Source of the DNA: Lachnospiraceae bacterium
Lineage (GTDB): Bacteria > Bacillota > Clostridia > Lachnospirales > Lachnospiraceae
Direction: 5' to 3'
DNA: 64,000 bases
Assembly: GCA_021200995.1 (NCBI GenBank)
Contig: JAJQFS010000082.1
Span: forward strand, 47,442 to 111,441
In this document: piece after piece, positions 24,114 to 29,354 of the stretch
How the letters are laid out: every line of letters begins with the position of its first letter
Position numbering within the stretch: the first letter of the stretch is position 1
The notes under the pieces: generated by a model
Databases searched by the model: none
Told to the model about the DNA's origin: nothing
The model's input: the letters and a program-made list of their open reading frames with translations, nothing else
Made by a program: the position numbers and the translations under genes

Positions 24114-25628
24114 CTACCTCTGCATCCGGTAGCATGCCGCCTCCTTCAGATGCGCCTCCTGTATCAGCTCACTGCCCTCTAAGTCCGCGATCGTCCGCGC
24201 CACCTTCAACAGTCTGTGATACGCCCGCGCTGACAGCTGAAGACGTTCAAACAAAATGCCTGCGCACCGCTCAGTCTCCTTTGTCATGGAACAGTAACGC
24301 GCGATATCCTTTGCAGGAATCTGAGAATTAAAGCGGATCGGCGTCCCCATAAAACGCTCCTGCTGCCGTTCTCTTGCCCTGAGAACACGGGCTCGCATCA
24401 CGGCGCTGCTCTCGGAAGGCTTCCTCTCTCTTAACTCCTCAATCCGCACGGCCGACACCTGACAGCACAGATCGATCCGGTCGAGGATAGGCCCGGAAAT
24501 TTTCCCCAGATAACGCTCGATTTCCGCGTCCGTGCATTTACAGCGGTTACGGTCCGGATAATAACCGCAGGGGCAGGGGTTCATCGCCGCCACCAGCATG
24601 AAATCCGCCGGGAAGGAATAGATTGCCTCGCTTCTGGCGATCTGCACCCGTTTTTCCTCCATGGGCTGGCGCAGCACTTCCAGCACGTCCCGCCGAAACT
24701 CCGGCAGCTCGTCCAGAAAGAGAACCGCGCGGTGCGCGAGAGAAATCACGCCCGGCCTGGGAATGCGGCCACCGCCCGCCATGGCCTGCACAGACATGGT
24801 GTGATGCGGATTTAAAAATGGGCGCGTGGTGATAAAGGGCGTGTTTTCATCCAGCTTTCCGGCCACACTGTAAATGCTGGAAATTTCCATACTCTCTTCG
24901 GCGGAAAGGGGCGGCAGAATGGAGGGCAGTCGCCTGGCAATCATCGTTTTCCCCGCGCCGGGAGGCCCGATCAGGAGGAAATGATGGAAACCGGCGGCCG
25001 CGATCTGCGCGGCCCTGCGCGCCTGCAGCTGTCCCTGCACCTCCGAAAAGTCCGCTGTATCCAACGCCGACTTTTCCTGAAAATAAGCCTCCGTATCCAG
25101 AACATAAGGCTCCCTCTTTTCTCCGGACAGCAGCTTAAGGACATCTGTCAGGTTGTCCATGCCGTAAACCTCTATGCCCTGAACAAACGCGCCCTCCCCG
25201 GCATTTGCCAGAGGCAGGACCACCCTTGCAAAGCCCTGCTTTTTGGCCTCATTCACAATGGGCAGGACGCCCTGGACGCCCCTGAGCTCCCCGTTTAAGC
25301 CCAGTTCTCCTAAAAAAAGCGTCTCCTCAAGCCCTTCCGCTTTGATTTCCCCGGACGCGTAAAGCGCGCCGACGGCGATGGGCAGGTCAAGCCCCGTGCC
25401 TGCCTTTTTTAAGTGCGCCGGACTGACATTGACCGTGATGCGCAGGTTCGGCAGCTGTTTTCCGATATTTTTGACCGCCACGCGGACGCGCTCCCTGGCT
25501 TCTTTGACCTCAAAGGCCATATTGCCCACCATATCAAATGAAGGCAGGCCGAAAGACGCGTCGACCTCGGCCCTAAGCATCCTGGCATACATGCCCTGCA
25601 TCATCCCGCTGTAAACATACGTGTACAT
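24114..25628 (-). CDS. comM: YifB/ComM family AAA+ branch-migration helicase
   Basis: 504 residues, full length. N-terminal Lon-protease-like fold (MYTYVYSGMMQGMYARM, NVSPAHLKKAGTGLDLPIA), Walker A GPPGAGKT (221-228), Walker B VLFLDELPEF (301-310), the zinc cluster CPCGYYPDRNRCKC (351-364) and the Mg-chelatase C-terminal helical domain. ComM promotes integration of transforming DNA by branch migration. GGGGAGG lies seven bases before the ATG but is fully buried in the 16-bp stem at 25636-25680, which also occurs upstream of dprA. That points to shared control of natural transformation genes. Confidence 0.93.
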   Translation of the reverse strand: MYTYVYSGMMQGMYARMLRAEVDASFGLPSFDMVGNMAFEVKEARERVRVAVKNIGKQLPNLRITVNVSPAHLKKAGTGLDLPIAVGALYASGEIKAEGLEETLFLGELGLNGELRGVQGVLPIVNEAKKQGFARVVLPLANAGEGAFVQGIEVYGMDNLTDVLKLLSGEKREPYVLDTEAYFQEKSALDTADFSEVQGQLQARRAAQIAAAGFHHFLLIGPPGAGKTMIARRLPSILPPLSAEESMEISSIYSVAGKLDENTPFITTRPFLNPHHTMSVQAMAGGGRIPRPGVISLAHRAVLFLDELPEFRRDVLEVLRQPMEEKRVQIARSEAIYSFPADFMLVAAMNPCPCGYYPDRNRCKCTDAEIERYLGKISGPILDRIDLCCQVSAVRIEELRERKPSESSAVMRARVLRARERQQERFMGTPIRFNSQIPAKDIARYCSMTKETERCAGILFERLQLSARAYHRLLKVARTIADLEGSELIQEAHLKEAACYRMQR

Positions 25629-25635
25629 AAAATTA

Positions 25636-25693
25636 CCTCCCCGTGCATATAGTTGTTCACCTTATATATGCACGGGGAGGCCATTTTTTCGCG
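25636..25693 (-). promoter_or_regulatory. Shine-Dalgarno-sequestering hairpin upstream of comM, shared with dprA
   Basis: Perfect 16-bp inverted repeat (arms 25636-25651 and 25665-25680) around a 13-base loop. In the comM mRNA the 3' arm ends GGGGAGG, the ribosome site, seven bases before the ATG. The inner stem GTGCATATA/TATATGCAC, the GTGAAC core of the loop and the CGCGAAAAAA block at 25684-25693 are all repeated at the same spacing upstream of dprA. It could act as a translational switch, an attenuator or a DNA operator. Confidence 0.75.
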
Positions 25694-25730
25694 TTTTTAT
25701 TTTATTAAATTTTTATAAACCGATTTTCAA

Positions 25731-27428
25731 TCATTCCGCAGCGGTTCCCGCCTCAATCAGGGCATACAATTCTTCAGAACTGTCGAAACCAAGCACCACA
25801 TATCCATTCTCATCTGTATAGATGATATAATCCTCATCATAATAAGCCAGCTCCGGATTGACTTCTCCGTCCTGCGGATTAAGTAATACAAAAACCTTTC
25901 CTTCAGGCGCCACATCATGATCTTTGGACTGGAGCCACTGATAAATCGTCATCGACCAGACATTGTCGACCACCCAGACCTCAACCTCGCCGTCTGTCAG
26001 CTCCGTCAGCAAATCACCGTTCCAGAAGGAAGCATATCCCTGTGTGTAGTCATTCTCAGCCAGCCATTCGCCCACCTCGCTCAGACCCGGACGGGTGCGG
26101 GGCGGCAGCTCCAGGAAACGAACCACCGTACTGAAGCTGGTGCAGACTACCGTAAACAGCAGGCATGCCGTCACTGCACCACGAAGCGCGGAGGTTCGAA
26201 AAGACTCTGTTCTGATTTCAATGGCGGTTACCGCGATTGCCAACGGGATCAGCGGCAGCCAGTAGCTGGCGTAAATCGCGCTCACATCCTCCAGGAACGA
26301 ATACACAATTGTATTCACGGCGAAACACATCCAGAATGTCAAAAGCACCATAAGCTGCGGGAACGTCAGATCCTTCATACGTGTCAGCAGACGTACAGCG
26401 CTGAATACCACCAGGGCCATGAAAACAAAGCCAAACGCCCCAAACAGACCGGACCTGCTGAAGAGATAGTTTTCCTGTCAGGCAATCGCTGACCAGTAAG
26501 GTCCCGTCGGGTAACCGAAAAGGCTTAAGAACTTGCCCCAGATGTTCAGGACCAGATCCAGATCAAAATCCCTCCAGTACTGATTCTGTGAATAAATCTC
26601 AAACGTGTAATATCTGGAAAGGACGCCGGTATTGATCAGATAACCCGCTCCACATGCCACTGAAGAGAGCGCTGTTACGACTCCCAGACGGATTTCAGGC
26701 ATGGATCTCCATGGCTTTTCGAACGGCGCCTTCTGAATCCGCACCGCCAGTGCCAATACACAGGCCGCCAGAAGCGGGATGTACAGATTCATCAGCATCC
26801 GCACACCACTGAGTCCCTGCAGAAACGCCAGCAGAAGCATCAGGAAAAGACAGACTCCGCTGTGTTTTCCTTTCCTGGCAAAATGCAGAGCAAGCGCAAG
26901 TCCGACACTGACAAAAATCATGAACGACAAGTAAGAACCATTATATGTTCCATACCACATATACCAGAAACCAAAGGGGCACATCAGAATCGCGGCGCTG
27001 TAAACCCCGATCCGTTTCAGGCCGCATTCATGCGTTAAAAAGAGATAGCTGCCCGCATGCATGGCCAGCATAATGGCCTGGGAAAAGGTTCTCGCGAAAT
27101 GCCAGTTATGCGGAAAGAGCAGAAGGCCGAGGCAAAGTGTCAGATGACGATTCAGCACCCATATTTCCGTGGAATAATACCAGTCGGAACTGAGCACGAA
27201 CTCACCTTTCTCCAGCAGCTGTTTTGCCAGCAGGATTTCCGCGGACATATCCGAGTTCAGAAGCTGCTTTCCGTAAATCAGATGAAAAAGGACCGCCGCC
27301 AGATATGCCGCCGCCAGACAAAACCAGGGCAGAACCGCCGCCAGCTTTTCCTGACTGAGTATCGTGTAAAATTTCCTGAGCTCTTTTCCGCCGGCTTTTT
27401 CCCGCTGCGGCGCTTTTGCTTTTTTCAT
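25731..27428 (-). pseudogene. polytopic membrane protein (GT-C glycosyltransferase-like) interrupted by in-frame TGA
   Basis: Two open stretches in one frame, 26478-27428 and 25731-26477, are separated only by TGA at 26478-26480 (…YWSAIA stop QENYLFSRS…). Reading through gives about 565 residues with some ten membrane segments. An early outside loop with LLNSDMSAEILLAKQLL followed by SSDWYYSTEIWVLN resembles the acidic first loop of GT-C glycosyltransferases, and a C-terminal outside domain starts near WLAENDYTQGY. One G-to-A change from TGG would explain the stop. The probable start is the ATG at 27428 (MKKAKAPQ). The 3' part alone has an internal ATG at 26420 without a clear ribosome site. 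Confidence 0.75.
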
Positions 27429-27555
27429 TTGTATCATGGCCCCCTGTAATCTGAGTATTGTGTCGTTTTCTGTCACATTTTAGCATATTTTAATATATCT
27501 GCAAAGAGCTTTCTTCCCTGATTCACTGATCTGACCCGTTAAAAGTCGGAGGGAT

Positions 27556-28793
27556 TCACCTGGGCACCACGGCATACATTCCGCCCACATTTCTGCATTT
27601 TCCCATTAACTCCAGTTCCATTAAACCGGTTAAAAATTCCGGCAGGCTTTTTTGACCATCATTTTCCTGAAAAGAACGGTACAGCGTCTCCACCGGCTGC
27701 GGGGTCGTATCGAGCAGAGACGAAAGCTGATTTAGAAATGGAGAAAGAGAAGGATCATAAGTCAGTTTTTCATCTTCTGAACAGAAACCTCTCTGTCCGG
27801 CTTCCGAGGGCAGGAAAAGCCGTGCGCCATGTGCTCGTTTCTGACAACGTCTCCGGCAAGATCTCTGTCGTCTCCGGAAGCGACAGTCTTCCTGACAACC
27901 CCGCGGTCTCTGTTTTCCCGCCTGAGCGCAAACGCTTCCCACACCATCTGCGTCATCTCCTGCGGCGAAGTGACCAGGTGCGCGCCCTGACTGTAGAGTT
28001 TATGGCAGCCCTGGCTTAACGCGTCCGTGATCCGACCCGGCAAGACCGCTACCTCCCGCCCCTGCTCCAGGGCCATGTCCACCGTAATCAGCGTACCGCT
28101 TTTCTCCCTGGCCTCGATCACCAGAACCAGATCCGCCAGACCGGAAATCAGGCGGTTGCGGGGCGGGAAATTTTGATTCAGCGGCTGCATGTGCAGCGGA
28201 TACTCGCTGATAATTCCCCCTTCTGATGCCAGCTGCTCATACAGTGGCCGTGCCTCAGGCGGATAGCAGACATCCGCACCGCTTCCCAGGACAGCAAAGC
28301 TTTTTCCACCCCCGTCCAGGCAGGCCCGCTGACTGATACTGTCAATTCCCCGCGCCATGCCGCTGATCACCTGTATCCCGGCCGCGGCCGCGGCGCTCCC
28401 CATCAAGCGCGCGGCTTCCCTGCCATAAGCGGAGCAGGCGCGCGCGCCGATCATGGCAACAGCAGGCCTGTCAGGGGCAGGCAACGCGCCCTTCATGAAA
28501 ATCCCGTAAGGTGGATCAGGGATTTCTTTCAGACGACCAGGGAAACGCTCTTCCCATACCGTCACATATTCCACCCCGGCTCTCTCGCACTGTCTCATAA
28601 GCCCATCCGGCGTCTGAGAAAATTCCCGCAGGCTTTTGATCTGCGGCGGCCTCAGAACCGTACGCAGTTCCTCTTCCGATGCCGCCGTGGCCTGTCTGAG
28701 CGAACCAAAAGTCTCCTCCAAATGGTAAATTGTCCTTCTTCCGATTCCCGGGACGCTCTGAAACCACAACGCCCACAGATTTTCTTCGCACAT
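27556..28793 (-). pseudogene. dprA: DNA processing protein DprA, frameshifted before its winged-helix domain
   Basis: Residues 1-~300 (28793 down) give the SAM-like and Rossmann domains: VPGIGRRTIYHLEE, VAMIGARACSAYGREAA, GMARGIDSISQRACL, LGSGADVCYPPEA, SEYPLHMQPLNQNFPPRNRL, EAREKSGTLITVDMALEQGR. This frame stops at 27762. The C-terminal winged helix (LLDTTPQPVETLYRSF to GGMYAVVPR) is in the -1 frame and ends at 27556. DprA loads RecA on incoming single-stranded DNA. The N-terminal product alone may still fold. The same sequestering hairpin as comM precedes the ATG; GGGAGGG is seven bases upstream. The shift lies in the poorly conserved linker between 27762 and about 27940. Confidence 0.88.
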
Positions 28794-28799
28794 AAAAAA

Positions 28800-28858
28800 G
28801 CCCTCCCGTGCATATAGTCGTTCACTCTATATATGCACGAAAGAGCCTTTTTTTCGCG
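28800..28858 (-). promoter_or_regulatory. Shine-Dalgarno-sequestering hairpin upstream of dprA, shared with comM
   Basis: Arms about 28800-28816 and 28830-28847 around a 13-base loop. The core GTGCATATA/TATATGCAC equals that at comM, while the outer pairs differ in a compensated way: two Watson-Crick swaps (C-G to U-A and U-A to C-G) and three C-G to U-G changes. The ribosome site GGGAGGG forms the 3' arm. In the dprA mRNA the stem is followed by CTTTTTTATG, so it could also terminate transcription. Confidence 0.75.
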
Positions 28859-28877
28859 AAAGTTTTTATAAAAACTT

Positions 28878-29354
28878 TCATCCGACTTTTTTGTCCGCTT
28901 TCTTCGTCGCGAACACCCACTTTTTCTGAATGACATAGCTGATAAAGAAAATCCCGGTGTCTACAATCGCCTTCGACAGCACAGTCGGGATCGCCGTCGG
29001 CATCATCGTCACCAGCTGCGCGCTGGCGAGCATCTTGCCCACAAATAATATCGCGTATTTCACCGCCTGAGAGCCCATGAACTGCGCCGATGCGCCGCCT
29101 GACCCGCCGAAGCTCCAGAATTTATTCATCAGGAAATTCAATGTCCCGGCAATCACCCTGGAAATGGCCGTGGCCAGGTAAATCATCTGCGCGCGCGGCA
29201 GGGGAATAACCTGGCAGAGCAAATAGAAAAGCAGCAGCTCCACCGCCGACCCGGTCAGGGAGGAAGTTACAAATTTAAGGAACGGAATCCGTTTTTTTAT
29301 AAATTCGATCACTTTTTGCAAGACAGTACTTTTTCCTTTCCGGAACTTCCACAT
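28878..29354 (-). CDS. GtrA-like flippase family membrane protein
   Basis: 158 residues with four membrane segments. The family signatures LNFLMNKFWSF after segment two and FFISYVIQKKWVF at the end are present. GtrA proteins are thought to flip undecaprenyl-phosphate-linked sugars. It sits between dprA and the large activase, close to a GT-C-like protein and two GT8 enzymes, which fits envelope glycosylation. The start is uncertain: the ATG at 29354 lacks a good ribosome site. Confidence 0.82.
   Translation of the reverse strand: MWKFRKGKSTVLQKVIEFIKKRIPFLKFVTSSLTGSAVELLLFYLLCQVIPLPRAQMIYLATAISRVIAGTLNFLMNKFWSFGGSGGASAQFMGSQAVKYAILFVGKMLASAQLVTMMPTAIPTVLSKAIVDTGIFFISYVIQKKWVFATKKADKKVG

Follow-up and report, generated by a model that had tools for sequence, protein, structure and literature searches.

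The dprA and comM genes of the window (the whole 64,000-nucleotide stretch of Lachnospiraceae DNA analysed) are each preceded by a hairpin that has the Shine-Dalgarno (SD) sequence as its 3′ arm and shares its inner 5′ arm and loop with a promoter-like motif. We put the probability that a dedicated promoter is folded into the SD-hiding hairpin at each leader at roughly 60%. Specifically, a genus-specific promoter type, with GTGAC or GCGAA and GCMTATATA as its elements, would drive both genes. Its -10 would constitute the inner 5′ arm and the SD the 3′ arm; the spacer ahead of the -10 is complementary to the SD. RNA reading through from upstream genes would contain both arms, fold into the hairpin and hide the SD. 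RNA from the dedicated promoter would start in the loop or the 3′ arm, lack the 5′ arm and leave the SD freer. Translation would thus be tied to the dedicated promoter.

Both hairpins lie on the minus strand where the sequence-only reading had placed them, and the details that it listed were reproduced. The inner stem, GTGCATATA/TATATGCAC, is identical at comM and dprA. The 13-nt loops (TAAGGTGAACAAC and TAGAGTGAACGAC) share a GTGAAC core, and CGCGAAAAAA is equally distant in the two leaders. In an alignment of the two copies, the outer stem shows two full pair swaps and three changes of C-G to U-G, and no other difference. The SD (GGGGAGG or GGGAGGG) is the 3′ arm of each hairpin, and 7 nt separate it from each ATG. 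The identities of ComM/YifB and DprA were likewise upheld (Table 1). The predicted folding energies were -33.8 kcal/mol for comM (z = -6.7) and -39.5 kcal/mol for dprA (z = -7.3), and 0 of 200 shuffles were as stable as the hairpins. The dprA copy reaches only -27 kcal/mol when read as plus-strand RNA, compared with -39.5 kcal/mol in the sense direction. The U-G changes pair only in sense-strand RNA, which shows this RNA to be the selected molecule.

Table 1. Coordinates of the two window leaders, their genes and two kinds of gene found directly behind the motif. Positions without a locus number are those of the window; R2 is the sequence-only motif model described in the text.
Feature	Position	Strand	Remark
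comM leader hairpin	25636..25680	-	5′ arm 25680-25665, 13-nt loop, 3′ arm 25651-25636
comM leader -35-like GCGAA	25688..25692	-	R2 match 25693-25655, 34.9 bits; putative role
comM leader -10-like TATATA in GCATATATA	25663..25668	-	predicted start near 25656
comM SD GGGGAGG, in 3′ arm	25636..25642	-	7 nt before ATG at 25628
comM, YifB-type Mg chelatase-like AAA ATPase	24114..25628	-	TIGR00368, 556 bits
dprA leader hairpin	28801..28845	-	5′ arm 28845-28830, 13-nt loop, 3′ arm 28816-28801
dprA leader -35-like GCGAA	28853..28857	-	R2 match 28865-28819, 34.8 bits; putative role
dprA leader -10-like TATATA	28828..28833	-	predicted start near 28821
dprA SD GGGAGGG, in 3′ arm, then T run	28801..28807	-	ATG at 28793
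dprA, DNA-processing protein	27762..28793	-	TIGR00732, 222 bits
Membrane-protein gene upstream of dprA, co-directional	28878..29354	-	GtrA-like by appearance
mazE-like antitoxin gene, then mazF-like reading frame	L280 5201-5539; L283 2890-3228	-	directly behind motif; G003, G005
Protein of ~182-192 aa (HTESYIDHESVDSN...), no known family	L320 1479-2051; L325 1616-2158	+; -	directly behind motif; G000, G002, G008

Conservation was evaluated in the nine genomes of one Lachnospiraceae genus in our collection, the window's genome being G000. In all nine, the operon that contains dprA and comM has the hairpin immediately ahead of its first gene. This gene is dprA in eight genomes; in G004, with the order comM-dprA, it is comM. 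An additional comM-leader copy is present in G000, G002 and G008, and a leader duplication in this sub-group is its probable origin. In an alignment of 11 leaders from the nine genomes, 96.5% of the stem cells are paired and five pairs co-vary in a compensated manner. No shuffle reached the covariation score, and slid registers were at most 66% paired. It is thus nearly certain that the SD-hiding hairpin has been selected as RNA; the stem pairing may also take in the start codon. Only two copies of the element with this inner stem and loop are present in the 2.81-Mb genome of the window. When a pattern for the inner stem was run over 98 relatives, its true sites were the dprA/comM leaders of the genus, and the remainder were chance-like. 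In other genera, the comM upstream regions inspected showed no comparable hairpin over the SD. In the G006 assembly, the dprA reading frame and the first ATG past the hairpin are in different frames.

The same comparison bears on the possibility that the hairpins act as intrinsic terminators for the genes upstream, their closeness to the SD being incidental. At dprA, a T run follows the stem, and the co-directional upstream gene stops approximately 20 nt ahead of the motif. At comM, by contrast, the stem is followed by TAATTTT only, a weak run; our terminator consensus scan is blind to 13-nt loops. Moreover, the leader is constant while the upstream genes differ between genomes, and termination does not need a conserved inner 5′ arm, loop and SD. 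We consider this explanation very improbable, although a side role in termination is possible: the T run at dprA may also end part of the read-through RNA. The likely source of that RNA, judging by gene arrangement, is the upstream membrane-protein gene itself, for which the name GtrA-like rests on appearance, as it has no NCBIfam match. Just ahead of the dprA motif (window 28858-28880, minus strand) lies a perfect palindrome, GAAAGTTTTTATAAAAACTTTC, which occurs in the sub-group G000/G002/G008 only.

The inner 5′ arm and the loop are part of a motif of approximately 46 bp, TTYTGTGACRAATYGGC-N6-CRTGCMTATATA-WRGTRRAG. It consists of a -35-like GTGAC and a -10-like GCMTATATA at constant spacing in the sites used. 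Sixteen bases lie between the pentamer (GTGAC or GCGAA) and GCMTATATA, which makes 19 up to TATATA, and 18 when the hexamer GTGACG is taken as the -35. Most other sites carry GTGAC; the comM and dprA copies of the window carry the weaker form GCGAA. A sigma-54 reading of the GGC..TGC letters was dismissed by eye, the spacing being one base short and the GG not being kept. A scan for ordinary sigma-70 sites found none in front of either window hairpin.

The motif was searched for using two models, whose E-values are rough. Strong matches to R1, a covariance model of the dprA/comM leaders, were limited to dprA/comM in the genus; weaker ones marked a third locus that has the same architecture with a different stem (e.g., TTTGTGACAAAATGGCCTCCTCATGCCTATATAAGGTAAGGAGGTCATTTTTTATG). 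Such a search had been proposed in the sequence-only reading, and it indeed met this architecture before a Tad-type pilus operon. Over 299 family genomes, R1 also returned matches of 24-39 bits near assorted genes; those inspected were mostly AT-flanked hairpins without the motif, and the matches truly sharing the architecture were limited to the pilus sites of the genus and the nuclease sites of G004. An exact pattern for the shared part yielded 2-5 sites per genome, with almost none for the backward control. R2, a sequence-only model, was built from 19 sites, none of them at dprA/comM. It nevertheless recovered every dprA/comM leader, and found approximately 60 sites over the nine genomes; the number of independent sites is smaller because the leaders of the Rpn-type genes are partly paralogous. 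Outside the genus, R2 gave one weak match in one of 297 other family genomes. Thus, among the 299 family genomes, sets of sites occur only in the two that belong to the genus.

The pattern of change within the leaders is consistent with a promoter in the 5′ arm. From the -35-like element through the inner 5′ arm, the 11-leader alignment is gapless, whereas the loop and the inner 3′ arm are gapped. Column identity is 98% in the inner 5′ arm versus 90% in its partner. Counted as cells, which are not independent events, one-sided changes in the outer stem number 12 on the 5′ side versus 3 on the 3′ side, and in the inner stem 8 on the 3′ side versus 1 on the 5′ side. This lopsidedness is as expected if the SD and the -10 are the constrained strands. 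At comM of G002, the inner 3′ arm and the loop have decayed and the motif is intact. In addition, some sites lie 100-200 nt upstream of genes that have no hairpin at their SD; the motif is therefore primary, and the anti-SD spacer has been added to it. On these sequence comparisons, the motif is likely to be an embedded promoter.

We then weigh a regulatory RNA, in which the promoter would be further upstream and the hairpin, always present in the mRNA, would be opened by a protein, a small RNA, temperature or a ligand at the loop. The stability and covariation of the hairpin, its conserved loop and the SD in its 3′ arm all agree with this explanation. However, the same "loop" letters occur at sites without an SD hairpin, and the motif survives in G002 comM despite decay of the hairpin. 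Conservation also starts at the -35-like element and not at a promoter further upstream, and no Rfam family reached its gathering score, the only matches being chance-level ones to microRNA models, far below gathering. A regulatory RNA of this type is therefore unlikely. The sequence-only reading had proposed an RNA switch. What stands of it is an SD-hiding RNA element kept by compensatory change, with dprA and comM co-regulated; a self-standing switch with a ligand- or protein-binding loop does not, as the loop and inner 5′ arm belong to a motif that is also upstream of hairpin-less genes. Its emphasis was probably wrong.

Predicted SD accessibility agrees with the embedded promoter. In read-through RNA, the unpaired fraction of the SD was 0.00-0.18, versus 0.23-0.99 in RNA from the predicted start. 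For the window leaders, the values changed from 0.00 to 0.76 at comM and from 0.00 to 0.35 at dprA. Shuffled spacers that hid the SD equally well were rare (0-6 of 60 per leader). In four dprA leaders, the SD is still partly paired in the short RNA (0.26-0.35). This is one of the points that count against the mechanism, together with the weaker GCGAA in the window, the partial loss of TATATA at the G004 pilus copy and the lack of the motif at comEC. The motif is also longer than a usual promoter.

In the genome of the window, the seven sites are located before dprA, comM, a second Tad operon, three Rpn-like genes and the gene of a 192-aa protein. Sites in relatives also precede further Rpn-type genes and mazE-like antitoxin genes (Table 1). 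Among the relatives' Rpn-type proteins, one each scored above cut-off for PF04754 and PF12784, the rest being assigned by resemblance or from scores under the cut-off. Horizontal transfer has been proposed as a role of Rpn proteins, which are nucleases, and anti-phage defence by them has been reported in E. coli (PMC10327210).

This gene content raises the alternative that the motif is the end or target of a mobile element, or a repressor or activator site that is not itself a promoter. Its length, approximately 46 bp, would suit such an origin, as would the location of most sites before Rpn-type genes, which move horizontally (PMC10327210). Against this, sites are oriented with the gene before at least five unrelated gene kinds, the GTGAC-TATATA spacing is constant in the sites used, and two exact-pattern scans of viral contigs found no copy of the motif. 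We rate this alternative as improbable. If an activator box were fused to a -10, the outcome would be the same as with the embedded promoter.

The second Tad-type pilus operon has the motif ahead of it in all nine genomes of the genus. Its first gene encodes a TadA/VirB11-type ATPase of 340 aa that scored above cut-off for PF00437 and, at 88 bits, below the model cut-off for TIGR03819; T2SSF-like and CpaB-like genes follow. Here, a different stem surrounds the same motif, and the sequence before the -10 is again complementary to the SD. The G004 copy (G004:C27:12013-12060, minus strand) has kept the anti-SD hairpin and partly lost TATATA (GCCTAAAGG). The other Tad ATPase of the window's genome (G000:C37) is a different gene, without a motif site. 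Searches that started from the C88 ATPase gave only TadA-sized matches in the genus, while most relatives also gave PilB- or PilT-sized ones, which suggests that the genus is without a ComG/type IV pilus system. In a weak test outside the genus, no motif common to comM and the pilus ATPase gene was found in G021, G023 or G030.

These genes bear on the competence regulon that had been proposed for the lineage. dprA and comM indeed stand behind one element. However, comEC, present in all nine genomes, has no motif nearby in the eight regions scanned, and in the window's genome comEA, ssb and recA are not among the genes behind the seven sites. As many sites are before nuclease or antitoxin genes, the proposal is only partly borne out; a competence regulon is plausible. 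The motif being common to the second Tad operon, Rpn nucleases and a few others, the hairpin would be used in one branch of a lineage regulon in which DNA uptake probably has a part. More tentatively, and with a little less than even odds, the genus may run a dedicated DNA-uptake programme in which the specialised Tad-type pilus replaces the usual competence pilus. A sigma factor or activator would read GTGAC-N16-GCMTATATA, and anti-SD spacers would tie translation of the key genes to the promoter, having arisen with one stem at dprA/comM and another at the pilus operon.

The principle of a promoter embedded in a hairpin is already known from phage T4. In I-TevI, I-TevII, I-TevIII, segB and late genes (soc, e) of T4, and in mobE of phage Aeh1, the promoter sits inside a hairpin that hides the ribosome binding site (RBS), and early read-through RNA of T4 is therefore not translated (PMC2988022). 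Like T4 I-TevI, the leaders described here form, by folding prediction and alignment, a stable hairpin in which the 3′ arm carries the RBS. The overlap of the motif with the 5′ arm predicts a further likeness, a promoter placed so that its own RNA lacks the inhibitory arm, and read-through RNA is predicted to be silent. Unlike in T4, the setting is a bacterial chromosome and transformation genes, the motif is shared by several genes, the promoter is of another type and the starts are predicted. The proposed embedded-promoter hairpin sits on chromosomal transformation genes. If true, it would constitute a chromosomal device of the T4 type that keeps recombination genes from being expressed by accident, and different stems would have led to it at two kinds of locus. 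In IS10 and IS50 transposase leaders, the start region is hidden by a hairpin that forms in RNA coming from outside, and the element's own promoter lies within. Those hairpins protect a transposase from outside transcription and have no sequence relation to the leaders here.

Transformation in Micrococcus luteus requires Tad genes, as determined using mutants (PMC4322843). There, too, Tad-type pilus genes are connected with transformation; here, the connection is a motif common to the pilus, dprA and comM, and the phylum is different. In the ComX regulon of Streptococcus and the ComK regulon of Bacillus, a common promoter element groups dprA with DNA-uptake genes. In the present genus, the motif differs and comEC is outside; in a comparison by eye, the nearest likeness to the ComX and ComK boxes was ACGAAT in the -35-like part, which is missing from the window's copies. 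We found no description of the motif or the leader, and nothing on the regulation of natural transformation in Lachnospiraceae, in the open literature, coverage of which leaves out most subscription papers. This regulation is largely undescribed in gut Clostridia. The occurrence of one motif at dprA/comM, a pilus operon and many nuclease genes hints at an undescribed DNA-uptake programme, and the motif joining dprA, comM and the Tad-type pilus provides a concrete gene list and a signature for finding the regulator.

Two irregularities were observed in the window's operon. Between dprA and comM, a membrane-protein gene (25731-27476, minus strand) has one in-frame TGA at 26478-26480, which splits it into two same-frame reading frames of 332 and 229 aa. 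It is an insertion, absent between dprA and comM in G002 and G008. The end of DprA (LTYDPSLSPFLNQL...; 27556-27942, minus strand) is in a different frame from the rest of the gene (27762-28793, minus strand). In G002, this end is continuous with the upstream part, so the dprA of the window seems to be frameshifted or to contain an assembly error.
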